This document shows positions 21,569 to 30,776 of a stretch of 64,000 bases of DNA, piece after piece. The notes under the pieces are model-generated. The model searched no databases, was not told where the DNA came from, and was given only the letters and a program-made list of their open reading frames with translations. Positions within the stretch are counted from its first letter, which is position 1, and each line of letters starts with the position of its first letter. Source of the stretch: Actinomycetota bacterium (GTDB lineage: Bacteria > Actinomycetota > Thermoleophilia > Solirubrobacterales > 70-9); contig JAFDWB010000032.1 of the NCBI GenBank assembly GCA_018268675.1, positions 1 to 64,000 of the forward strand. The letters run 5' to 3'. The translations under genes were made by a program, and so were the position numbers.

Positions 21569-22156
21569 ATGTCAGCCAACGATCACACCCAAGCGCCGCC
21601 CGTGCCGCCCCGATCCGGCTTCGTCCTGATGGTGGCGACGATGGCCCTGCTCTTCTCCTTGGTCGCGGTGCTCGCCGTGGCCTTCCGGATGCAGAACTCG
21701 AACAGCACCGTCCCCGCCCACTACGGGTCCACGATGATGAACGGCTCGACCGTCCACGGCCCGGCCTCGATGATGGGCGCCGGCACCGGCACCGGCGGCG
21801 GCGCCGGCGTCGAAACCGTCGACGTGGTGATCAAGAGCGACGAAGAGCACGCTCGCCGCGGCCCCGAAGGCACCTGGCACGACGCCTTCCTGCCCGCCAG
21901 CTTCACGGTGCGGCCGGGAGCCACGGTCAAGGTGACGTTCCACAACTACGACGAAGGCGAACACACCTTCACCTCGATGCCGCTGGGACTGAACTTCAAG
22001 ATCCCGGGTGGCTCCGCCCGGCACCCGAAGAGCACCACCTTCACCTTCCGGGCGCCGGACCACCGCGGCACCTTCCTCTGGTACTGCGCGATGCCGTGCG
22101 ACCCGTGGGCGATGAGCCACGTCGGCTACATGCGCGGCTACGTCACCGTCGCCTGA
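21569..22156 (+). CDS. Membrane-anchored cupredoxin-domain protein
   Basis: The 195-residue protein has a cytoplasmic tail of about 16 residues, one membrane helix (FVLMVATMALLFSLVAVLAVAF), and a Met/His-containing linker (residues 40-75). A C-terminal cupredoxin domain follows. Likely copper ligands are the His in GEHTFTS and the cysteines in WYCAMPCDPWAM plus a following His/Met. The C-x3-C spacing recalls the CuA site of cytochrome oxidase subunit II, but the expected His four residues after the second Cys is Ala. It may therefore be an atypical mono- or binuclear site in an extracytoplasmic electron carrier. AGGAGA precedes the ATG. It is convergent with the ferredoxin operon. Confidence 0.82.
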   Translation: MSANDHTQAPPVPPRSGFVLMVATMALLFSLVAVLAVAFRMQNSNSTVPAHYGSTMMNGSTVHGPASMMGAGTGTGGGAGVETVDVVIKSDEEHARRGPEGTWHDAFLPASFTVRPGATVKVTFHNYDEGEHTFTSMPLGLNFKIPGGSARHPKSTTFTFRAPDHRGTFLWYCAMPCDPWAMSHVGYMRGYVTVA

Positions 22157-22171: not shown

Positions 22172-22195
22172 CGGTGCGCTACGGGTAGCGCACCG
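22172..22195. terminator. Bidirectional terminator hairpin
   Basis: CGGTGCGCTA and TAGCGCACCG form a perfect 10-bp stem with a CGGG tetraloop. It lies between the convergent cupredoxin and ferredoxin genes and contains the ferredoxin stop codon. Confidence 0.65.
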
Positions 22196-22385
22196 CGCCG
22201 GTCTCCTCGTCGACGATCGAGATCGCGGCCGCCGGGCAGGCTTCCGCCGCCGCCAGCAGCAGCTCAAGCGGGGCGGCGCCGATCACCACGGCGACGTCGT
22301 CGAGGCGGAACACCTCGGGCGCCACCTCGACGCAGTCGCCATGGGCCATGCACTCGTCAGGGTCGACCACCGGTACGTAGCTCAT
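22179..22385 (-). CDS. Ferredoxin, single [3Fe-4S]-type cluster
   Basis: The 68-residue soluble electron carrier has ligands in DECMAHGDC and EACPAAAI. A His replaces the second Cys of the usual CxxCxxC, which is the pattern of small [3Fe-4S] ferredoxins that serve cytochromes P450 and related oxidoreductases in actinobacteria. The start MSYVPVVDPDEC at 22385 overlaps the stop of the reductase gene (ATGA); longer upstream frames are shadows. It is the last gene of the minus-strand operon that also encodes its likely reductase. Confidence 0.92.
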   Translation of the reverse strand: MSYVPVVDPDECMAHGDCVEVAPEVFRLDDVAVVIGAAPLELLLAAAEACPAAAISIVDEETGAVRYP

Positions 22386-23563
22386 ACGGCGAGCTCCTCT
22401 CTCTCGACGGCGCGGGCGCCGTCTTGGATCTGTCTGCGAAGGGTGCGGATCGCGGCGGGCCTGCCGACCGCGAGCCCCGCGACCGGGACGCCGCCGCGGG
22501 TGAAGAGGACCTCGAAATCGCGGCCCGCCGGATCGCCGTCGAGCTGCGTGGCGTCGGCGCCGCGCGGGTCGCCGACGCACTGCACGCGGAGGCCGAACTG
22601 GTCGCTCCAGAAGGCAGGCGGCGGCGGCGTCCCCGGGTCCTCGCCGAGCATCGTCCTGGCCGCCGCGGCGCCCTGCCAGGCGGCCGCCTCCCAGTGCTCG
22701 GTGCGGTGGTGGCGGCCGCTCGCCGGATCGAGGGACAGGGCCGAGTCGCCCGCGGCGAACACGTCGGGCAGCGGCGAGCGGCCGCCGGCGTCGATCGGGA
22801 TGCCGGCGGCGAAACCGTGCTCGGCGAGCCAGGCCGTCGCCGCGACGGTCCCGATCCCGACCACGACGACGTCGCAGCCGATCCGCTCGCCGTCGGCGAG
22901 CACCAGCTCCTCGACCGCGGCGCCGCCGCGGGCCTCGGCCAGGGCCGCGCCGAGCCGCACGTCGACGCCCTCCTCGCGGTGCAGGTCGGCGAACCAGCCG
23001 CCGATCTCCTCGCCGAGGATCGGCGCGAGCGGGGCCGGCAGCGCCTCGATCAGCGTCACCTCGGCGCCGAGGCCGCGGGCAGTCGCCGCGACCTCCTGGC
23101 CGATGAAGCCGGCGCCGACGATCGCCAGGCGCACCCCGGGCGCGAGCGCCGCGCGCAGGGCCCGCGCGTCGGCGAGGTCGCGGAGCACATGCACGTTGCG
23201 GTGGGTGAGGAAGGGCAGCCGGCGGGCCGCGCCGCCGGTCGCGATCAGCAGGCGGTCGTACCGGTAGCGGGCGCCGGACTCGCAGCGCACGGTGTGCCCG
23301 CGCGGGTCGAGCGCGGTGGCGCGCTCGCCGAGCGCCAGCTCGACCTCGTTCTCGCGGTACCAGTCGCGCGGCCGGTAGGCGAGCGTCTCCTCCCCCACCT
23401 CGCCCGCCAGCACCCGCTTCGAGAGCGGCGGCCGGTCGTAGGGCGCGAACGGCTCGGCGCCGCAGATCCGCAGCGCTCCCTCGTAGCCGCGCCGGCGCAG
23501 GGTCTCGGCCGCCCGCTGGCCCGCCAGGCCGCCGCCGACGATCAACACTCCTCGCTTTTTCAT
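22382..23563 (-). CDS. FAD-dependent ferredoxin reductase
   Basis: The 393-residue protein has an N-terminal FAD Rossmann motif VLIVGGGLAGQRAAETL, DRPPLSKRVLAG, a second dinucleotide motif LAIVGAGFIGQEVAATA for NAD(P)H, and PDVFAAGDSA. These are the signatures of rubredoxin/putidaredoxin-type reductases. It should transfer electrons from NAD(P)H to the ferredoxin encoded immediately downstream. GGAGGAGG precedes the ATG at 23563, which overlaps the stop of the membrane-protein gene. The longer frame extending to 24241 is a shadow. Confidence 0.92.
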   Translation of the reverse strand: MKKRGVLIVGGGLAGQRAAETLRRRGYEGALRICGAEPFAPYDRPPLSKRVLAGEVGEETLAYRPRDWYRENEVELALGERATALDPRGHTVRCESGARYRYDRLLIATGGAARRLPFLTHRNVHVLRDLADARALRAALAPGVRLAIVGAGFIGQEVAATARGLGAEVTLIEALPAPLAPILGEEIGGWFADLHREEGVDVRLGAALAEARGGAAVEELVLADGERIGCDVVVVGIGTVAATAWLAEHGFAAGIPIDAGGRSPLPDVFAAGDSALSLDPASGRHHRTEHWEAAAWQGAAAARTMLGEDPGTPPPPAFWSDQFGLRVQCVGDPRGADATQLDGDPAGRDFEVLFTRGGVPVAGLAVGRPAAIRTLRRQIQDGARAVEREELAV

Positions 23564-24213
23564 CCTGCCTCCTCCACGACGTCGGGGATGGGACGCGGCC
23601 GGGCGCGTCGCGGGCCGGCGGCGTGCGGCAGGGCCTCGCGGACCCTGCCGCCGACCGCCCGGGGGCCGCGCCGACCCAGCAGTCGGTAGACGAAGAGGCC
23701 GCCGATCACCGGCGCGGTGAGGATCACCCACCAGCGGAACCAGACCGCGGTCGCGTCGGTGCCCGCGCCGAGCGCGTGCACCAGGCCGAGGACGTAGACG
23801 ACGACCGTCGCCCGGTGGGCCTTGCGCCAGAGGCGGGCCCCGATCCGCTTGCGGACGTAGAAGCTGAGGCCGAGCAGCGCCGCCAGGTAGCCGGCGAGGA
23901 TGCCGAGGCCGGTGAAGATCGTCCGGTAGCCCATCGCGAACGGCACCGTGACGCCGGCGACGCCCGGGTTCAGCCACGGGTCGCCAAGCAGCGTGATGCC
24001 GTGGACGGCGATCGCCACGAGCGCCGCCAGCGCGGTGTGCTCGTGGACCGAGACCAGCTTGCGCGAGAGGCCGGGGCGCCGCATCACCTTCCCCGCCATC
24101 GCCAGGCCGATGCCGACCGAGATCGTGATCAGGGCGAAGGCGACGAGGCCCGAGGCGCGCGAGGCGAGCCACCAGCCGTGGCTCTGCAGGGTGGTCGAGA
24201 TGCCGCCGCTCAT
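23560..24213 (-). CDS. Ferric-reductase-like transmembrane protein
   Basis: The 217-residue protein has about six hydrophobic segments and haem-ligand-type histidines in VHEHTALAALVAIAVHG and in RKAHRATVVVYVLGLVHALG. This is the ferric reductase-like / MsrQ haem b domain pattern, moving electrons across the membrane. The tail after residue 175 is basic and Pro/Arg-rich. It overlaps the ApbE gene upstream and the ferredoxin reductase downstream by ATGA. The likely chain is NAD(P)H, ferredoxin reductase, membrane haem protein, and an extracytoplasmic flavoprotein. The final acceptor is not visible. Confidence 0.85.
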   Translation of the reverse strand: MSGGISTTLQSHGWWLASRASGLVAFALITISVGIGLAMAGKVMRRPGLSRKLVSVHEHTALAALVAIAVHGITLLGDPWLNPGVAGVTVPFAMGYRTIFTGLGILAGYLAALLGLSFYVRKRIGARLWRKAHRATVVVYVLGLVHALGAGTDATAVWFRWWVILTAPVIGGLFVYRLLGRRGPRAVGGRVREALPHAAGPRRARPRPIPDVVEEAG

Positions 24214-25205
24214 GCGGCCGCCCCGAGCGCCTCGAGCTCATCGCCGGCCGGCGTCGTGCGGGCCGCGGCGATCGGGCCGACGGACTCCACGGCGCCGTCG
24301 TCGTGGACCATCAGCCCGCCTTTGGTGGCCAGCAGGCGCCGCCCCCCGACCGGCCCCGAGAGCAGCGCCGCCTTGGCCAGCGTCTCCGCCTCCAGCGCGG
24401 TGTCGCCCAGCGCGGTGGCGCCGACCAGGCCGGTCCAGGCCGGCTCCCCGGTCGCCGGGTCGAGCAGGTGGTGGCGGTGGCGGCCGTCCTCGTCGCGCCA
24501 GATCCTCACGTTGAGGCCAGAGGTGGCGATGCCGCCGAAACCGAGCCGGATCCGGTGCGAGCGCTCGCCGCTCAGCGGGTGCTCGACGAAGACCTCGTAG
24601 GGCCAGATCAGCGCCCCGGCGCCGCCGATCCGGATGTCGCCGCCGCAATCGACGACGAAGCGGGGATAGCCGCGCAGACTGGCGGCGACGAGGTCGGCGG
24701 CAAGCCCCTTGCCGGAGCCGCCGGTGTCGAACCCGAGGCCGGGGGGACGGACCACCTCGCCCGCCTCCTCGTCGGTACCGAGCTCGCGCCAGCGGGCGTC
24801 GGGGCGGGGGCGCGCGGGGCGCCGGGCGGGGGCCGTGGCCAGCGCGTCGGCCAGCGGCTCGCCCGCCAGCCCGGCGCGCGAGGAGACGTAGCCGACCCGC
24901 TCGATCTCGCCGAGCAGGGTCGGGTCGACCAGGCCGCCGCTCAGCTCCGCGGCCCAGGTCCCGGCCCGCACGGCGCGCCGCAGGAGCGGCGAGGCCGGCA
25001 CGCGCTCGCGCGGGTCCTCGTTCAAGGCGCTGAGCTCGCTCGCCGGCTTGAAGCGCGAGAGGGCGGCGTCGAAGTCTTCGACGAAGCGGCGCCCGGCGGC
25101 GGCGGCCTCGGCGGCCGGCGGCAGGTGCGATTCGGGACCGGGCTCGCCGATCAGGAGCCTGACGTGGCTGCCCATCGCTTCGAAGGTGAGGTCGTGTTCG
25201 TTCAT
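24210..25205 (-). CDS. apbE: FAD:protein FMN transferase (ApbE family)
   Basis: The 331-residue enzyme attaches FMN from FAD to a Thr/Ser of extracytoplasmic redox proteins. Family features are AMGSHVRLLI at the N terminus, SRFKPASELSALN, FDTGGSGKGLAADLVA near residue 160, VDCGGDIRIGG, and HHLLDPATGEPAWTGL. No signal peptide is obvious, so it may act inside the cell or be exported by another route. It overlaps the ferric-reductase-like gene. No canonical FMN-binding substrate domain is encoded nearby; the small membrane-anchored proteins at 25238, 25518 and 28530 are the only visible candidates. Confidence 0.93.
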   Translation of the reverse strand: MNEHDLTFEAMGSHVRLLIGEPGPESHLPPAAEAAAAGRRFVEDFDAALSRFKPASELSALNEDPRERVPASPLLRRAVRAGTWAAELSGGLVDPTLLGEIERVGYVSSRAGLAGEPLADALATAPARRPARPRPDARWRELGTDEEAGEVVRPPGLGFDTGGSGKGLAADLVAASLRGYPRFVVDCGGDIRIGGAGALIWPYEVFVEHPLSGERSHRIRLGFGGIATSGLNVRIWRDEDGRHRHHLLDPATGEPAWTGLVGATALGDTALEAETLAKAALLSGPVGGRRLLATKGGLMVHDDGAVESVGPIAAARTTPAGDELEALGAAA

Positions 25206-25237
25206 CGTCTTGTCCGTTCGTTCGGGGTCGGCGCCGC

Positions 25238-25525
25238 TCAGGAGGTCGAGGTGACGATCGGTTCGGTCGGCACCGCCGCGGCGGCGGTGGTCGCCGGGCC
25301 GCTGCTGACCTTGTTGACGCCGGGGCTGGGGACGACGGTGGTGACGATCCGTCGCTTCAGCACCTTGCGCACCTGGACCGGGCGGGTGGCGGTGGCACTG
25401 CCGTAGCCGGTGCCGCCGGCGCTGAGCTGGAAGGTAAGGAGCGCGAAGAGCACCGCGAAGAGGGCGGCGGAGGACCAGAAGACGGCCGCGCCGCCGGGGC
25501 GCCGCGTCGGGCGGGGCTCAGTCAT
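25238..25525 (-). CDS. Small single-pass membrane protein, unknown
   Basis: The 95-residue protein has a basic N terminus (MTEPRPTRRPGG), one membrane helix (AVFWSSAALFAVLFALLTF) and an outside tail rich in Val/Thr/Ala/Ser. The tail ends in EPIVTSTS and contains SSGPATTAA. The PIVTS stretch is shared with the small protein at 28530-28802. Its start overlaps the stop of the gene at 25518 by eight bases, and the ApbE gene follows after 32 bases. I do not recognise a family. Position suggests a part of, or flavinylation target of, the ApbE/ferric-reductase-like system, which is inference. Confidence 0.7.
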   Translation of the reverse strand: MTEPRPTRRPGGAAVFWSSAALFAVLFALLTFQLSAGGTGYGSATATRPVQVRKVLKRRIVTTVVPSPGVNKVSSGPATTAAAAVPTEPIVTSTS

Positions 25526-25964
25526 CGTGGCCCCCTTCGTGCTCGGACCCGTCGCCGCCGGCGCCGGACCCGCTGGTCGCCGTGCTGACCGGCGGCGCGC
25601 CGGACCCGCTGGTCGCCGTGCTGACCGGCGGCGCGCCGCCCCCGCTGGTCGCGGTGGCGAGCGGGACCGCGGCGGTCGAGGAGCTGCCCGAGCTGCCGGT
25701 CGCCACCGGCGGGGCGCCGGTCGCCGCGGTGGCGCCCGCCGGGGCGGTGCCCGGGACGGTGCCGCCGGCGGCCGCCGGATGCTTCGGCTTGGCGTGCTTG
25801 GTCACGTGGATCGTCTGCCGGATCACCTTGGTGTGGACCAACGGGTGGGCGGCGACCGTCGATTGGGTCGGCTGTCCGTGGTTCTGGCCGAGGGCGAATC
25901 CGGCGATGCCTCCGAGGCCGAGCACGGTCGCGGCGGCGGCGATTCTGGAGTTCAGTCTGGTCAC
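25518..25964 (-). CDS. Small exported His- and Thr/Ala-rich protein, unknown
   Basis: The 148-residue protein starts with a signal or anchor (RIAAAATVLGLGGIAGFALG) followed by NHGQPTQSTV. It then has a His/Lys-rich segment (HPLVHTKVIRQTIHVTKHAK) and a low-complexity Gly/Ala/Thr/Ser tail containing repeated ATSGSGAPPVST units, ending EHEGGHDD. The helix-LG-NHG pattern and acidic DD ending recur in the protein at 28530. I use the GTG at 25964, close behind GAGGAG; an upstream ATG at 25997 lacks a ribosome site. It heads the minus-strand ApbE operon and diverges from the OmpR-type regulator gene. Confidence 0.7.
   Translation of the reverse strand: MTRLNSRIAAAATVLGLGGIAGFALGQNHGQPTQSTVAAHPLVHTKVIRQTIHVTKHAKPKHPAAAGGTVPGTAPAGATAATGAPPVATGSSGSSSTAAVPLATATSGGGAPPVSTATSGSGAPPVSTATSGSGAGGDGSEHEGGHDD
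25561..25668. repeat. Three tandem 36-bp repeats inside a coding region
   Basis: Two exact 36-bp units (25561-25596 and 25597-25632) and one diverged unit (25633-25668) encode the repeated 12-residue GSGAPPVSTATS-type unit of the small exported protein. Being a multiple of three, copy-number change keeps the frame. Confidence 0.9.
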
Positions 25965-26101: not shown

Positions 26102-26821
26102 ATGAGCGCGGTCCGGAAGACCCCCCGCATCCTCGTCGTCGAGGACGAGCAGTCGATCGCCCGCCCGTTCGCCGAGGCGCTCCGCCGGGCCGGCTTCGAA
26201 CCCTTGCTCACCGGCACCGCCCACGGGGCGCTGCGGCTCGCCGAGTCCACCTCCCCCGACCTCGTGATGCTCGACCTGGCGCTCCCCGACGGCGACGGCC
26301 GCGACGTCTGCCGGGACCTGCGCCGGCGCTCGGACGTCCCGATCGTGATGCTCACCGCGCGGGGCACCGAGACCGACAAGATCGTCGGCCTCGAGCTCGG
26401 CGCCGACGACTACGTGGTCAAGCCGTTCAGCGCCGCCGAGGTGATCTCGCGGATCCGCGCCGTCCTGCGCCGCAGCGCCCCGGTCGAGGCGGCGCCGCGC
26501 GGGCCGCTGCGCGCCGCGGGCGGGCTCGAGCTCGACCCCGCCGCCCGCACCGTCGTCCTCGCCGGGCACGACCTCGACCTCTCCCGCAAGGAGTTCGACC
26601 TGCTCGCCGAGCTGATGCGCCACCGCGGCGAGGTGGTCACCCGCGAGGATCTGATGTCGCGGGTCTGGGACACCAACTGGTTCGGCTCGACCAAGACCCT
26701 CGACGTCCACATCGGCTGGCTGCGGCGCAAGCTCGGCGACGACGCCGCCGAGCCCACCTATATCGAGACGGTGCGCGGGGTCGGTTTCCGCTTCGTCGCC
26801 CCGGAGGGCGAGGAGCCGTAA
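26102..26821 (+). CDS. OmpR/PhoB-family response regulator
   Basis: The 239-residue protein has a receiver domain (DE at 15-16, phospho-acceptor Asp58 in VMLDLALPDGDG, Lys in YVVKPFSAAEV) and a C-terminal winged helix ending YIETVRGVGFRFV. It is paired with the histidine kinase gene that begins at its stop codon. It diverges from the ApbE operon and probably controls it or the flanking small-protein genes. The ATG lies right after CTATCGTCGGCAT with no ribosome site, so a leaderless message is possible. Confidence 0.93.
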   Translation: MSAVRKTPRILVVEDEQSIARPFAEALRRAGFEPLLTGTAHGALRLAESTSPDLVMLDLALPDGDGRDVCRDLRRRSDVPIVMLTARGTETDKIVGLELGADDYVVKPFSAAEVISRIRAVLRRSAPVEAAPRGPLRAAGGLELDPAARTVVLAGHDLDLSRKEFDLLAELMRHRGEVVTREDLMSRVWDTNWFGSTKTLDVHIGWLRRKLGDDAAEPTYIETVRGVGFRFVAPEGEEP

Positions 26822-26856
26822 GCCTCCGTGCGCTCCTACTACTGGCCCTGGCCTAC

Positions 26857-28185
26857 GTGCTGCTGCTGGCGCTGATCGCGCTCGGCGTGCCGTTGGCGCT
26901 GAGCCTGCGGGACCGGGTCAACTCGGAGGTGCGCAGCCAGGCCCAGAGCCAGGCGCAGGTGGTGGCCACCTCGGCGGCCGAGCTGATCGAACCGCCCCAG
27001 ACCCGCGTCCTCTCCCGCCTCGCGCGCACCTCGGCGGCGAGCGTCCGGGGACGGGTGATCGTGGTGAACGCACGCGGCCGGCTGCTCGCCGACTCGGCCG
27101 GCGTGCCGCTCGGCGTGAGCTACGCGGACCGGCCCGAGGTGCGGGCCGCCCTCGGCGGGCACGGGGTCCAGATCACCCGCGACAGCAAGACCCTCGGCGC
27201 CGAAATCCTCGCCACCTCGGTGCCGGTGTTCGAGCACGGCAGGCCGCGCGGGGCGGTGCGGATCACGCAGAGCGTCGAAGCCGTCAACCGGGCGATCCGC
27301 ACCTCGATCCTCGACGTCGTCGCGCTGGCGGCGATCGTGCTCGCGATGGGCCTGGTCGTCGGCTGGCTGATCGCCGCCCAGATCGCCCGGCCGATCCACC
27401 GCCTCGACCAGGCCGCGCGGCGGGTCGCGGGCGGCGACCTCGAGGTGGAGGCGGCGGTCGAGGGCAGCTCCGAGCAGCGCTCGCTCGCCCGCACCTTCAA
27501 CGAGATGACCGGCCGGGTGCGCCGGCTGCTCCGCGTCCAGCAGGATTTCGTCGCCGACGCCTCCCACCAGCTGCGCACGCCGCTGACCGGGCTGCGCCTG
27601 CGCCTCGAGGCGCTCGGCGAAAGGTTCCGCGCCGACCCGGAGGCGGTGGAGGAGGTCGACGCGGCGATGCTCGAGATCGACCGGCTCTCCCACATGGTCG
27701 ACGAGCTGCTGATCCTGAGCCGGGCAGGCGAGCACGACCGCCCCGGCGAGCCCGTCGACCTCGGCGACGTCGCCCGCCGCGGGGCAGCGCGCTGGCATGC
27801 CGCGGCGGCGGCCCACGGGGTCGAGCTTGAGCTGGGCCGCGACGGTGGCCCGGCGAGCGCCTGGATCGCGCCGCCGGACATCGACCGGGCGCTCGACGCC
27901 GTGGTCGAGAACGCGCTGCTCTACTCCCCCGCCGGCTCGACCGTGACGATCGACCACGGCCCCGGCTCGATCGCCGTCCTCGACCGCGGCCCGGGGCTCG
28001 CGAGCGGCGAGGAGGAGGCGGTCTTCGAGCGCTTCCGCCGCGGCAGCGCCGGGCGCGGCGGTCCCGCCGGGACCGGGCTCGGGCTGGCGATCGCCCGCGA
28101 GCTCACCCGGCAGTGGGGCGGCGACGTCAGGCTGGAGCCGCGCGATGGTGGCGGGCTGCGCGCCGTGATCGAGGTGGGCGGATGA
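26857..28185 (+). CDS. Membrane sensor histidine kinase (HAMP-HisKA-HATPase)
   Basis: This kinase has an N-terminal membrane helix, an extracytoplasmic domain of about 115 residues, a second helix (VVALAAIVLAMGLVVGWLI) and HAMP (RPIHRLDQAARRVAGGDLEV). The H-box is FVADASHQLRTPLTGLRL, and the HATPase domain has VVENALLYSP and GTGLGLAIAREL. The start is uncertain. Homology and the first helix run back to 26818, where the codon is GTA overlapping the regulator stop (GTAA). The GTG at 26857 is the first conventional start but cuts the helix. A former GTGA overlap mutated to GTAA would explain this. It partners the regulator at 26102. Confidence 0.88.
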   Translation: MLLLALIALGVPLALSLRDRVNSEVRSQAQSQAQVVATSAAELIEPPQTRVLSRLARTSAASVRGRVIVVNARGRLLADSAGVPLGVSYADRPEVRAALGGHGVQITRDSKTLGAEILATSVPVFEHGRPRGAVRITQSVEAVNRAIRTSILDVVALAAIVLAMGLVVGWLIAAQIARPIHRLDQAARRVAGGDLEVEAAVEGSSEQRSLARTFNEMTGRVRRLLRVQQDFVADASHQLRTPLTGLRLRLEALGERFRADPEAVEEVDAAMLEIDRLSHMVDELLILSRAGEHDRPGEPVDLGDVARRGAARWHAAAAAHGVELELGRDGGPASAWIAPPDIDRALDAVVENALLYSPAGSTVTIDHGPGSIAVLDRGPGLASGEEEAVFERFRRGSAGRGGPAGTGLGLAIARELTRQWGGDVRLEPRDGGGLRAVIEVGG

Positions 28186-28529
28186 GGGTGCCGACCAGCC
28201 TCCGCTGGGTCGCCTTGGCACTGCTCGGCCTGGTGATCGCGATCGCGATCGCGATCGCCGCGAGCAGCCTGGCGAGCCAGCAGATCGGGATCGCCTCCGA
28301 ATCGGTCTCCGCCGGGGACACGCTGGCGCCGCCGATCACCCCGACCCACGCGCGGCGGCACCCGGGGGCCGGCGGTGCCGCCGAACGGACCGAACCGACC
28401 GAACGAACCGAACCGATCAAACCGCACGAACGGACCGAACCGACCGAAGCCGTCGAACCAGAACTGCGCTCCTACAACGGCGGCGAAGACGGCGGACAAA
28501 CCCAGGGCGGCGGCGGTCCCGACGACTGA
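28182..28529 (+). CDS. Small single-pass membrane protein with ERTEP repeats, unknown
   Basis: The 115-residue protein overlaps the kinase stop (ATGA). It has one N-terminal helix (WVALALLGLVIAIAIAIAAS), then an outside tail with charged repeats (ERTEPTERTEP, then HERTEPTEAVEP) and a Gly-rich acidic end GGGGPDD. That ending resembles GGGQDD of the convergent small protein at 28530 and GGHDD of the protein at 25518. The family is unknown. As the third gene of the two-component operon it could be a sensor accessory or a target protein. Confidence 0.7.
   Translation: MRVPTSLRWVALALLGLVIAIAIAIAASSLASQQIGIASESVSAGDTLAPPITPTHARRHPGAGGAAERTEPTERTEPIKPHERTEPTEAVEPELRSYNGGEDGGQTQGGGGPDD
28235..28258. 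repeat. Four tandem GATCGC hexamers
   Basis: Four exact copies of GATCGC encode the Ile-Ala alternation of the membrane helix in the small protein. The six-base unit keeps the frame, so slippage would only change helix length. Confidence 0.85.
28382..28448. repeat. Imperfect coding repeat (ERTEP units)
   Basis: A 22-bp sequence occurs exactly at 28382-28403 and again at 28427-28448, with related units between, encoding ERTEPTE stretches of the small membrane protein. Confidence 0.8.
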
Positions 28530-28802
28530 TCAGTCGTCCTGGCCGCCGCCGCTGCTCGTCCGGGTGACGATCGGGCTGTGGTGGATCACGCCGTTCGGTC
28601 CGACCGTCGTCGCGATGGTGGCGCCGCTGGCGCTGGTCACGATCGGGGCGCGACCGGGGGCCTGGCCACCGGCCTGGACGCCGGCGACCGTGGCCACCGG
28701 GGCCGTCAGCCCGTGGTTCGACCCGAGGGCGGCGGCGCCGAGGGCGGCGAGGCCGACGACCGTCACCGCGGCGGCGGCCTGGGCACGTCGATCGCTCTTC
28801 AT
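28530..28802 (-). CDS. Small exported protein with SGAT motif, unknown
   Basis: The 90-residue protein has a signal or anchor (AAAAVTVVGLAALGAAALG), NHG, then an outside tail containing PIVTSASGATIATT, HHSPIVTRTSS and a GGGQDD end. The SGATIAT segment resembles the SGAT-x-T/S sequence that ApbE flavinylates in NqrB, NqrC and RnfG, but the surrounding FMN_bind domain is absent. AGGAGG lies eight bases before the ATG at 28802. Its stop abuts that of the plus-strand gene (TGATCA junction). It shares PIVTS, NHG and the DD end with the other small proteins around the ApbE operon. Confidence 0.72.
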   Translation of the reverse strand: MKSDRRAQAAAAVTVVGLAALGAAALGSNHGLTAPVATVAGVQAGGQAPGRAPIVTSASGATIATTVGPNGVIHHSPIVTRTSSGGGQDD

Positions 28803-28955: not shown

Positions 28956-29129
28956 GTGACCGGAACGACCCCCCTCGGCGCGATCTTCGACCTGAACGTC
29001 CCGGCCCACTACCTGAGCTGGCACTTCATCCAGATCTCGGTGCCGAACTTCGTCGTGATCGTGCTGATGATCGTCGTCTTCGTCGCCGCGCTCCTGATCC
29101 CCTTCCCGAAGCGGGAGCGGGAACCATGA
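28956..29129 (+). CDS. Small membrane protein preceding cytochrome b
   Basis: The 57-residue protein has one strongly hydrophobic helix (NFVVIVLMIVVFVAALLI) and a short basic cytoplasmic end (PFPKREREP). AAGGAGG lies eight bases before the GTG. Its stop overlaps the cytochrome b ATG (ATGA). The tight coupling suggests a structural subunit of the cytochrome b complex; I cannot assign a family by sequence. Confidence 0.75.
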   Translation: MTGTTPLGAIFDLNVPAHYLSWHFIQISVPNFVVIVLMIVVFVAALLIPFPKREREP

Positions 29130-29821
29130 GCGCCCCGGCGCACCGCCCGGCGAAGGCGGAGCGGACGATGTGGACGACCAGGGTGCGGGAACGCGCCGTG
29201 CGCGAGATGCCGCCGGAGAAGCTCCTCCCCGACCGCCAGCCCTCCTACGTCTCCTCCTGGATCTACGTCTTCGGCGTGGTGACGATCGCCGCCTTCGCCG
29301 TCGTCGTCGCCTCCGGCGTGATCCTCGGCCTGAAGGGGCCGGAATGGTGGCACCTCACCGGCCTCGGGCACTTCGTCAACAGCATGCACCTGTGGGCGGT
29401 GGAGATCTTCTTCTTCGCGATGGTCGTCCACCTCTGGGGGAAATTCTTCATGGGCGCCTGGCGGGGCGGCCGGAGCCGCACCTGGGTGACCGGCGCGATC
29501 ACCTTCCTGGTCGCGATCGGCGCCGCCTTCACCGGCTACGTATCGCAGCAGAACTTCGACTCGCAGTGGATCGCCTTCGAGGCCAAGGACGGGTTGAACG
29601 CGGTCGGTATCGGCTCCTTCTTCAACGTCGCGAACTTCGGCCAGATGTACACCTGGCACGTGATCCTGCTGCCGACGGTGGTCGTCCTGCTGATCGTCGG
29701 CCACGTCCTCCTCGTCCGCCGCACCGGCGTCGTCCCTCCCTACGCGGCCCGCCTGGCGAAGGCGCCGCCCGCCGCGACCGCGACGGCCGCCGGGGCCGCG
29801 ACGGGAGCCGAAGATGCCTGA
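29126..29821 (+). CDS. Cytochrome b, N-terminal (haem-binding) domain protein
   Basis: The 231-residue integral membrane protein carries two haem-ligand His pairs with 13 residues between them. One is in HLWAVEIFFFAMVVHLW and the other in HVILLPTVVVLLIVGH. With FTGYVSQQNF these match the N-terminal half of cytochrome b/b6 of quinol-oxidising complexes. The C-terminal quinone-site domain is not in this polypeptide; it is either absent or replaced by the next protein. The tail is Ala-rich. It overlaps the preceding gene and the next one, whose ATG (29814) lies inside its last codons. Confidence 0.88.
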   Translation: MSAPAHRPAKAERTMWTTRVRERAVREMPPEKLLPDRQPSYVSSWIYVFGVVTIAAFAVVVASGVILGLKGPEWWHLTGLGHFVNSMHLWAVEIFFFAMVVHLWGKFFMGAWRGGRSRTWVTGAITFLVAIGAAFTGYVSQQNFDSQWIAFEAKDGLNAVGIGSFFNVANFGQMYTWHVILLPTVVVLLIVGHVLLVRRTGVVPPYAARLAKAPPAATATAAGAATGAEDA

Positions 29822-30776
29822 TCCGGTCAAGCCGCCCGCCTTCCCCGACGAGCGCGCCCCGTGGCCGGGCCCCTTCGTCCGCTACGACCTCGTCAAAGAG
29901 CTGGTCGTGGCGCTCGGCGTGGTGCTCGCGGTGGTGGTGGCGCTGACCGTCCTCTTCTCCTCGCCCGACGAACCGCCGGTGACGATCCAGAGCTGGTCGA
30001 AGGCCGCCCCGGCCGACTTCCTCGGCGTCGCGGTGAGCGAGCTGAATCGCACCAGCGGCGTCGCCACCTATGGCCCGCCCTACAACGAAGGGACCGGCTC
30101 GGTCCAGAAGATCGGCCCGATCTCCCTGCAGGAAGCCGCAGGAGTCAAGGTGCCGATCGAAACGGCCAAGGACTACGTGCTCGAACCGCTGCACGAGGTC
30201 CCCGGGGCGCCGCGCCTGCGGGCCGCCCTCGCCGCCTACGAACAGGCGCCCGCGGCGCTCCAGGAAAAGTGGGCGGCGAACTACGAAAAGGCGCTGCCGG
30301 AAGCCCGCTTCGTCGCCGGCGTCCCGGTCCTGCCGCCCGGTCGCTACGGCCCGGTGGCACCGATGATGGCCTCGCTCCTGGCGATGGGCCAGTCGGGGGC
30401 GCTGGACGGCGCCCTGCTCGCCGGCGGCCACCACTTCTACGCGACCGACTACACCAAGCCGCTGCTCTTCGTCTCGGCGGGCGAATACTTCGAAAAGCTC
30501 GCCGAACACCAGCACCTGCTGGGGACCCAGTGGGGGATGATGAACGAGACCGGCAGCTACCCCGGCCAGGTCTGGCTCTGGCTCTTCAGCTTCTGGTACC
30601 AGGTCGAACCGTTCAAGTCCTCGTCCAACGCCGACGCCTTGATCTTCATGGTGATGGGGGTCCTGAGCCTGGCCTTCATCTGCATCCCCTTCATCCCCGG
30701 GCTCAACCGCCTGCCCCGCCGGCTCGGCGTGTACCGGCTGATCTGGCGCGACCACTACCGCGAAGTCGAATCCTGA
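29814..30776 (+). CDS. Cytochrome b-associated membrane protein, unknown
   Basis: The 320-residue protein has one membrane helix near the N terminus (VVALGVVLAVVVALTVLF) and a large extracytoplasmic region (about 50-265) with no CxxCH haem or Rieske motif. A C-terminal helix (IFMVMGVLSLAFICIPFIPG) is followed by a basic end. The PFIPGLNRLPRRLGVYRLIW ending recalls C-terminal parts of bc-complex subunits. Overlap with the cytochrome b gene suggests a permanent partner, perhaps the C-terminal subunit or a docking domain. Glu is mostly GAA. It is convergent with the heavy-metal ATPase gene. Confidence 0.7.
   Translation: MPDPVKPPAFPDERAPWPGPFVRYDLVKELVVALGVVLAVVVALTVLFSSPDEPPVTIQSWSKAAPADFLGVAVSELNRTSGVATYGPPYNEGTGSVQKIGPISLQEAAGVKVPIETAKDYVLEPLHEVPGAPRLRAALAAYEQAPAALQEKWAANYEKALPEARFVAGVPVLPPGRYGPVAPMMASLLAMGQSGALDGALLAGGHHFYATDYTKPLLFVSAGEYFEKLAEHQHLLGTQWGMMNETGSYPGQVWLWLFSFWYQVEPFKSSSNADALIFMVMGVLSLAFICIPFIPGLNRLPRRLGVYRLIWRDHYREVES

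Follow-up and report, generated by a model that had tools for sequence, protein, structure and literature searches.

Which protein receives the flavin in an operon that encodes ApbE, the flavin adenine dinucleotide (FAD):protein flavin mononucleotide (FMN) transferase, and no protein with an FMN_bind domain? The question is raised by a 64,000-nucleotide stretch of contig JAFDWB010000032.1 (positions 1 to 64,000, hereafter the window) from an actinomycetotal bacterium of the class Thermoleophilia, in which ApbE is encoded together with a ferredoxin, a ferredoxin reductase, a haem membrane protein and two small proteins, here called A and B. The operon probably codes for an electron relay across the membrane in which a C-terminal peptide tag, that of protein B, takes the place of an FMN_bind domain as carrier of the extracytoplasmic flavin, and which includes a multi-tag relative, protein A; judged from the translated sequences, these small exported proteins are likely to be the substrates of ApbE, with the last serine of protein B as an attachment site. 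The initial annotation had described a six-gene operon of this content, beginning with two small proteins of no recognised kind and lacking an FMN_bind protein, and coordinates and Pfam matches bear this out. All genes lie on the minus strand in the order A, B, ApbE, Ferric_reduct, ferredoxin reductase, ferredoxin (from 25964 to 22179), joined by 4-nucleotide overlaps apart from a 32-nucleotide gap between ApbE and B and an 8-nucleotide overlap between A and B. Both small proteins have a single transmembrane (TM) helix and match no Pfam or NCBIfam family over cut-off, and the Pfam scan finds no FMN_bind protein in the operon, whose features are as follows.

22179–22385, minus strand: ferredoxin of 68 residues with a single cluster (Fer4_13, E 2.3e-10; C12-x5-C18 ... 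C50-P in the translation)
22382–23563, minus strand: ferredoxin reductase of 393 residues, FAD-containing and dependent on reduced nicotinamide adenine dinucleotide (phosphate), NAD(P)H (Pyr_redox_2, 8.6e-58; Reductase_C, 1.1e-14)
23560–24213, minus strand: Ferric_reduct (MsrQ-like) membrane haem protein of 217 residues (PF01794, E 1.4e-7, 32.1 bits, cut-off 28)
24210–25205, minus strand: ApbE, FAD:protein FMN transferase of 331 residues (PF02424, 2.6e-36)
25238–25525, minus strand: protein B, 95 residues, one TM helix and a low-complexity tail, predicted FMN acceptor (C-terminal tag ...EPIVTSTS)
25241–25261, minus strand: tag of protein B, P-I-V-T-S-T-S-COOH, with the last Ser as predicted FMN site
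25518–25964, minus strand: protein A, 148 residues, N-terminal TM helix, four internal P-[VL]-x-T-x-x-S-G repeats and an acidic end, ..HDD
25569–25709, minus strand: four-repeat multi-tag stretch within protein A, placed by hand from the translation

ApbE attaches FMN to the last residue (Ser or Thr) of the motif D-x-x-[ST]-G-A-[ST], of which seven residues are enough, and flavin-tags built on it are most efficient at N or C termini (PMC12052999, cited here from part of its text, as are PMC8238504 and PMC11334425 below). The window tag PIVTSTS keeps the hydroxyl spacing of this motif but not its D, G and A. The wider occurrence of such ends was followed in 177 distinct ApbE from our own open reading frame (ORF) calls, deduplicated; removal of 12 truncated sequences left 165, of which 18 stand at FMN_bind loci and 147 at loci without. 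When the upstream ORF was picked without looking at its C-terminal end (a tag-blind pick), an ORF with a TM helix (TM-ORF) was found upstream of 127 of the 147 non-FMN_bind ApbE, and 111 of these 127 end in [ST]..SG? (108 in [ST]..S, 47 in P..[ST]..S), with 0.08 tag ends expected after shuffling of the last 25 residues. Applied to 958 other gene starts, the same pick yielded 236 TM-ORFs, eight with [ST]..SG?, while the FMN_bind loci gave nine TM-ORFs, none with the tag, and 0 of 18 even under a tag-favouring choice. The motif is bound to the very end of the protein: in 112 of 132 tails [ST]..S coincides with the C-terminal residue, against 0.01–0.09 at each of the seven preceding positions and 0.03–0.06 deeper (the two totals of tag-blind picks, 127 and 132, reflect different thresholds for hydrophobicity and composition). 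Ser closes 112 of the 132 tails and Thr none, and [ST]G[GA]S stands at the tail end in 21 of them, as against 15 of 11,146 places at least 8 residues upstream of the end.

The tag profile (115 sequences) begins with P or A at −6 to −8 and continues mainly with V/A/P/L, T/V/S/Q, a hydroxyl residue (T in 69, S in 46), S/G/R/A, Q/A/S/G/T and S. Exact [ST]GAS ends occur in 6 of 118 tag proteins and [ST]G.S in 29 of 118, a set chosen greedily in which at least five (L004, L005, L017, L079 and L177, with ends such as SKQS, SRWS and SRHS) resemble another, larger protein and may be chance matches. At these five loci, and at L183 and L211, ApbE is preceded by an exported protein that is larger and has a Ser-rich end of another type, possibly a further substrate class. 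A strict seven-residue rule, P..[ST]..S, proved too narrow (24 of 178 near-upstream ORFs, 20 of 4907 others) and was therefore relaxed to [ST]..SG?. The tag rule was fixed before loci L184–L223 were fetched, and there the tag-favouring choice finds a tag at 16 of 21 ApbE without FMN_bind versus 0 of 18 with it (the two ApbE of L202, one from each clade, are placed in the FMN_bind set). Genomes with FMN_bind contributed 14 further ApbE loci (16 ApbE), with nine strict tags, many of them VVSGGS- or VISGGS-like. Since the species are related, the loci are not independent of one another. Among isolates, Solirubrobacter soli, Svornostia abyssi and Patulibacter medicamentivorans carry the tag, and Paraconexibacter antarcticus shows none under the ORF rules used. 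A class-I PDZ-type C-terminal motif, which ends in a hydrophobic residue, was rejected as the tail ends in Ser.

Forty regions from other classes of the phylum, picked mostly as ApbE without FMN_bind, contain a comparable ORF with ends such as PPSTGGS, VTRSGGS, VTRSDGS and AVSQGS, and in some ORFs an SGGS-like motif stands a few residues short of the end (VTTGGSTPPP, VATSGASGAYR). At L182, L282, L279 and L291, from some Acidimicrobiia and other classes, the small upstream protein terminates with a Cys-flanked segment, for example CYTTPSGSTVCS, which may represent another form of acceptor.

The enzyme itself divides along the same line. The window ApbE can be aligned to FMN transferases of solved structure (best E 1.9e-41), and K166, D171, D190, S229 and H245 are conserved across tag loci. 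Against the known ApbE motif A-D-x-L-A-T, read from the alignment to solved structures, the position of the Asp is held by Glu in 95 of 118 tag-locus ApbE and that of the Thr by Lys in 85 of 118. In a quick tree, 52 tag loci (a sample of the 118) and 17 FMN_bind loci split on one branch with a Shimodaira–Hasegawa-like approximate likelihood ratio (SH-aLRT) of 100, so that FMN_bind has an ApbE clade of its own; within FMN_bind genomes, the ApbE linked to Ferric_reduct mostly retains the tag protein. Tag and clade split together support the earlier suggestion that the small exported proteins carry flavin in place of FMN_bind, the FMN being presumably covalent.

Protein B has the build of a tether. 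The substrate candidates carry a signal-anchor-like TM helix, and the tag proteins have one TM helix in 106 of 118 and a tail of median 86 residues. For the window protein, AlphaFold gives a helix at 13–35 only (predicted local distance difference test, pLDDT, up to 86 in this block) and mostly 45–54 in the tail, from an alignment of four sequences. In 114 of 118 tag proteins Lys and Arg are in excess on the N-terminal side of the helix (15- or 20-residue flanks), which places the tail outside by prediction. Nine B proteins from other loci, and the membrane protein of locus L003 described below, match no Pfam family over cut-off. A basic, beta-like stretch follows the TM helix in both A and B (VQVRKVLKRRIVTTVV and LVHTKVIRQTIHVTKH); a loose pattern of it occurs in 22 of 118 B proteins, and it could dock to the haem protein.

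Protein A repeats the tag internally, with six T..SG where shuffling gives 0.33, four of them as [VILMP]-x-T-x-x-S-G (0.07 expected). Similar excesses occur at L126 (3 vs 0.08) and L109 (4 vs 0.52) and in one L127 protein (4 vs 0.35). The forms PVSTATSG and PIVTSASG occur in protein A and in a second small protein of the window, A2, which does not match PF04205.

28530–28802, minus strand: protein A2, an ORF for a small TM protein with PIVTSASGAT and PIVTRTSSGG, ending ..QDD

The repeats of A resemble the B tag of their own operon (at L109, B ends PVTRTS and A has VRTRSSG), the pattern expected of two substrates of one enzyme. By eye, FMN_bind proteins of the class have an N-terminal TM helix similar to that of A and, in some, a GGDD-like end, and A may accordingly resemble an FMN_bind-type protein minus its domain. 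Protein A was also considered as a general feature of these loci and rejected as such, a TM protein with a DD end being found in just 28 of 100.

The proposed relay would run as follows. ApbE would move FMN from FAD onto the C-terminal Ser of B, and this tethered FMN would swing to and fro, linking the outer haem with further acceptors, with A, through its four internal T-x-x-S-G tags, serving as a multi-flavin strand that hands electrons on. Electrons would thus pass, in this presumed order, from NAD(P)H to FAD, the iron–sulfur cluster, the inner haem, the outer haem, the tethered FMN of B, the FMNs of A and an acceptor outside. Two haems are consistent with the Ferric_reduct protein, in which His57/59–His71 and His133–His146 form two separate H-x12-14-H pairs, likely haem ligands, found in 80 of 80 distinct homologues. 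This protein was set aside as an FMN substrate, having [ST]GA[ST] in just 2 of the 80.

Beyond this operon, the relatives share the arrangement, so that the partner which a common enzyme seemed to lack may have been hidden among small proteins of no known family. The balance of the evidence also tilts, with less assurance than for the operon, towards a general form of the proposal: that Actinomycetota have widespread, unrecognised, domain-free flavoproteins, single-pass tethers with FMN placed on the last Ser by a dedicated ApbE clade, which act as the swinging arm of a two-haem reductase and, with multi-tag relatives as flexible flavin wires, account for most ApbE genomes of the class that lack FMN_bind. 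If so, flavin-based electron transfer would require an ApbE-readable tail and no flavin-binding fold, natural protein ends would do what engineers built as the flavin-tag, a large set of tiny, fast-evolving proteins overlooked by domain searches would gain a function, and new tag and enzyme pairs would be at hand for labelling.

Several points weigh against this reading. Here Pro or another residue replaces the Asp of the motif, and Gly-Ala is relaxed to S, R, Q or T. An Asp-to-Ala change has a minor effect, one enzyme lost about half of its flavinylation when Gly and Ala were changed, and Thr accepts FMN better than Ser does (PMC12052999). A strict tag ORF is missing for 29 of the 147 non-FMN_bind ApbE, several of these being near-tags lost to filters (L058, L066, L100, L142, L171, L174) and two, L053 and L056, having a tag ORF (end APLTTSQS) away from the position directly upstream of ApbE. 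Outside the class, the strict motif stands on the last residue in just 15 of 32 TM-ORFs, and the rule is thus looser there. Proteins of type A with T..SG occur in 11 of 100 loci, and the single T..SG of A2 (0.13 expected, P about 0.13) is not significant alone.

The deviation of the motif also gives room to the strongest alternative, which we regard as unlikely: that the C-terminal tag, itself unflavinylated, serves in docking or processing, being recognised by ApbE, a protease or the haem protein, and that some other protein is modified by ApbE. In most loci the tag gene is close to both Ferric_reduct and ApbE, so either could be its partner. The hydroxyls, however, are conserved at the spacing of the flavinylation motif, exact [ST]GAS ends included, no other candidate substrate is seen, given how seldom Ferric_reduct has [ST]GA[ST], and in other loci FMN_bind proteins hold the same gene position as the tag protein.

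A C-terminal flavin carrier whose tail lies in the cytosol, its tethered FMN linking ferredoxin to the inner haem, is less probable still. An N-terminal hydrophobic stretch or signal peptide is found in 0 of 177 ApbE, those linked to FMN_bind included, which sits poorly with a tail predicted to be extracytoplasmic. With 40-residue flanks the outside prediction holds in just 90 of 118 tag proteins, and the window clade has a basic patch about 18 residues past the TM helix, which makes its topology less clear. Opposed to these are the charge bias over shorter flanks and the pairing of signal-less ApbE with FMN_bind proteins of the class that have an N-terminal TM anchor.

That a canonical FMN_bind protein or another known substrate elsewhere in the genome serves the window ApbE, as could be if its gene fell in the missing part of an assembly 96.65% complete, if a divergent domain evaded the profile or if it belonged to DUF3570, which lay outside the search, is very improbable and largely refuted by the absence of FMN_bind (PF04205), DUF2271 and NQR2_RnfD from this genome, which rules these out as hidden substrates, and by the separate ApbE clade of FMN_bind. 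A scan of 249 genomes from the class finds DUF2271 over cut-off in none, NQR2_RnfD in 15, FMN_bind in 28, homologues of the window Ferric_reduct in 113 and ApbE in 133. All 28 FMN_bind genomes have ApbE. FMN_bind is missing from 105 of the 133 ApbE genomes, and Ferric_reduct is present in 97 of those 105. The initial annotation had named an FMN_bind protein elsewhere, co-varying with this ApbE, as the finding that would overturn it; the genome holds none, and ApbE is instead tracked by Ferric_reduct, 111 of the 113 Ferric_reduct genomes having ApbE and just two lacking it. In a 2021 survey, 4% of ApbE genomes had no known substrate and unidentified substrates were said to remain; that survey kept only genes with a signal peptide or lipidation site (PMC8238504), a filter by which ApbE of the present kind would be lost.

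The source genome has two ApbE genes, each beside a small TM protein and not beside FMN_bind. The second locus (L003, 8805–10857 on contig 67) is differently built, with a tag protein ending EPLVTSQS directly upstream of ApbE, a regulator and kinase pair nearby, a 209-residue membrane protein without a Pfam match and a Ferric_reduct homologue downstream.

Conservation of the six-gene block as a whole did not hold generally, ferredoxin, reductase and Ferric_reduct occurring together in 12 of 100 loci. The conserved core over these 100 loci is the tag protein, ApbE and Ferric_reduct, and the NAD(P)H donor module is sparse, with reductase in just 15 and ferredoxin in 17. For the window reductase, the closest NCBIfam models are dioxygenase ferredoxin reductases, all under cut-off. 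Three genes lie between the operon and A2.

26102–26821, plus strand: response regulator, divergent from the operon (Response_reg, Trans_reg_C)
26803–28185, plus strand: sensor histidine kinase (HisKA, HATPase_c, HAMP)
28182–28529, plus strand: ORF for a small single-TM protein ending ..GGPDD, without a T..SG tag (no Pfam family)

The two-component system presumably controls expression of the operon, and the product of 28182–28529 has relatives with a DD end in neighbour loci. The A2 gene adjoins a cytochrome b gene (Cytochrom_B_N_2) and its partner at 29087–30776, which may tie the flavin strand to a quinol branch. On the other side, convergent to the operon, a cupredoxin-like membrane-anchored protein (21569–22156; PF13473, under cut-off) could be an electron acceptor. 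An Rfam search of the window gave no match.

Among known systems, the closest kind in the sources as available are the MsrQ-like flavinylated systems (PF01794 with ApbE and FMN_bind; Meheust et al. 2021, PMC8238504), in which, as here, an actinobacterial Ferric_reduct haem protein adjoins ApbE and NAD(P)H is the presumed donor. The operon described here differs in having no FMN_bind protein, in an ApbE without a signal peptide and in a donor made of separate ferredoxin and reductase instead of a fused NAD domain. DUF2271 and DUF3570 are likewise ApbE substrates in genomes without FMN_bind (PMC8238504), but they are folded domains with an internal [ST]GA[ST], whereas protein B has no domain and a C-terminal site. 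The literature searched, which took in few subscription papers or bioRxiv preprints, yielded nothing on natural C-terminal flavin tags; the engineered seven-residue flavin-tag (Tong et al. 2021, via PMC12052999) resembles the window tag as a short linear motif that is best terminal and has a last Ser or Thr as acceptor, and the window tag differs in being natural, in having P for D and in its relaxed Gly-Ala. Multi-flavinylated FMN_bind proteins (PMC11334425), finally, carry several flavins per extracytoplasmic chain, proposed to serve longer-range transfer, as protein A might; they are beads of folded domains, whereas in protein A the repeats are short and lie in a low-complexity tail.

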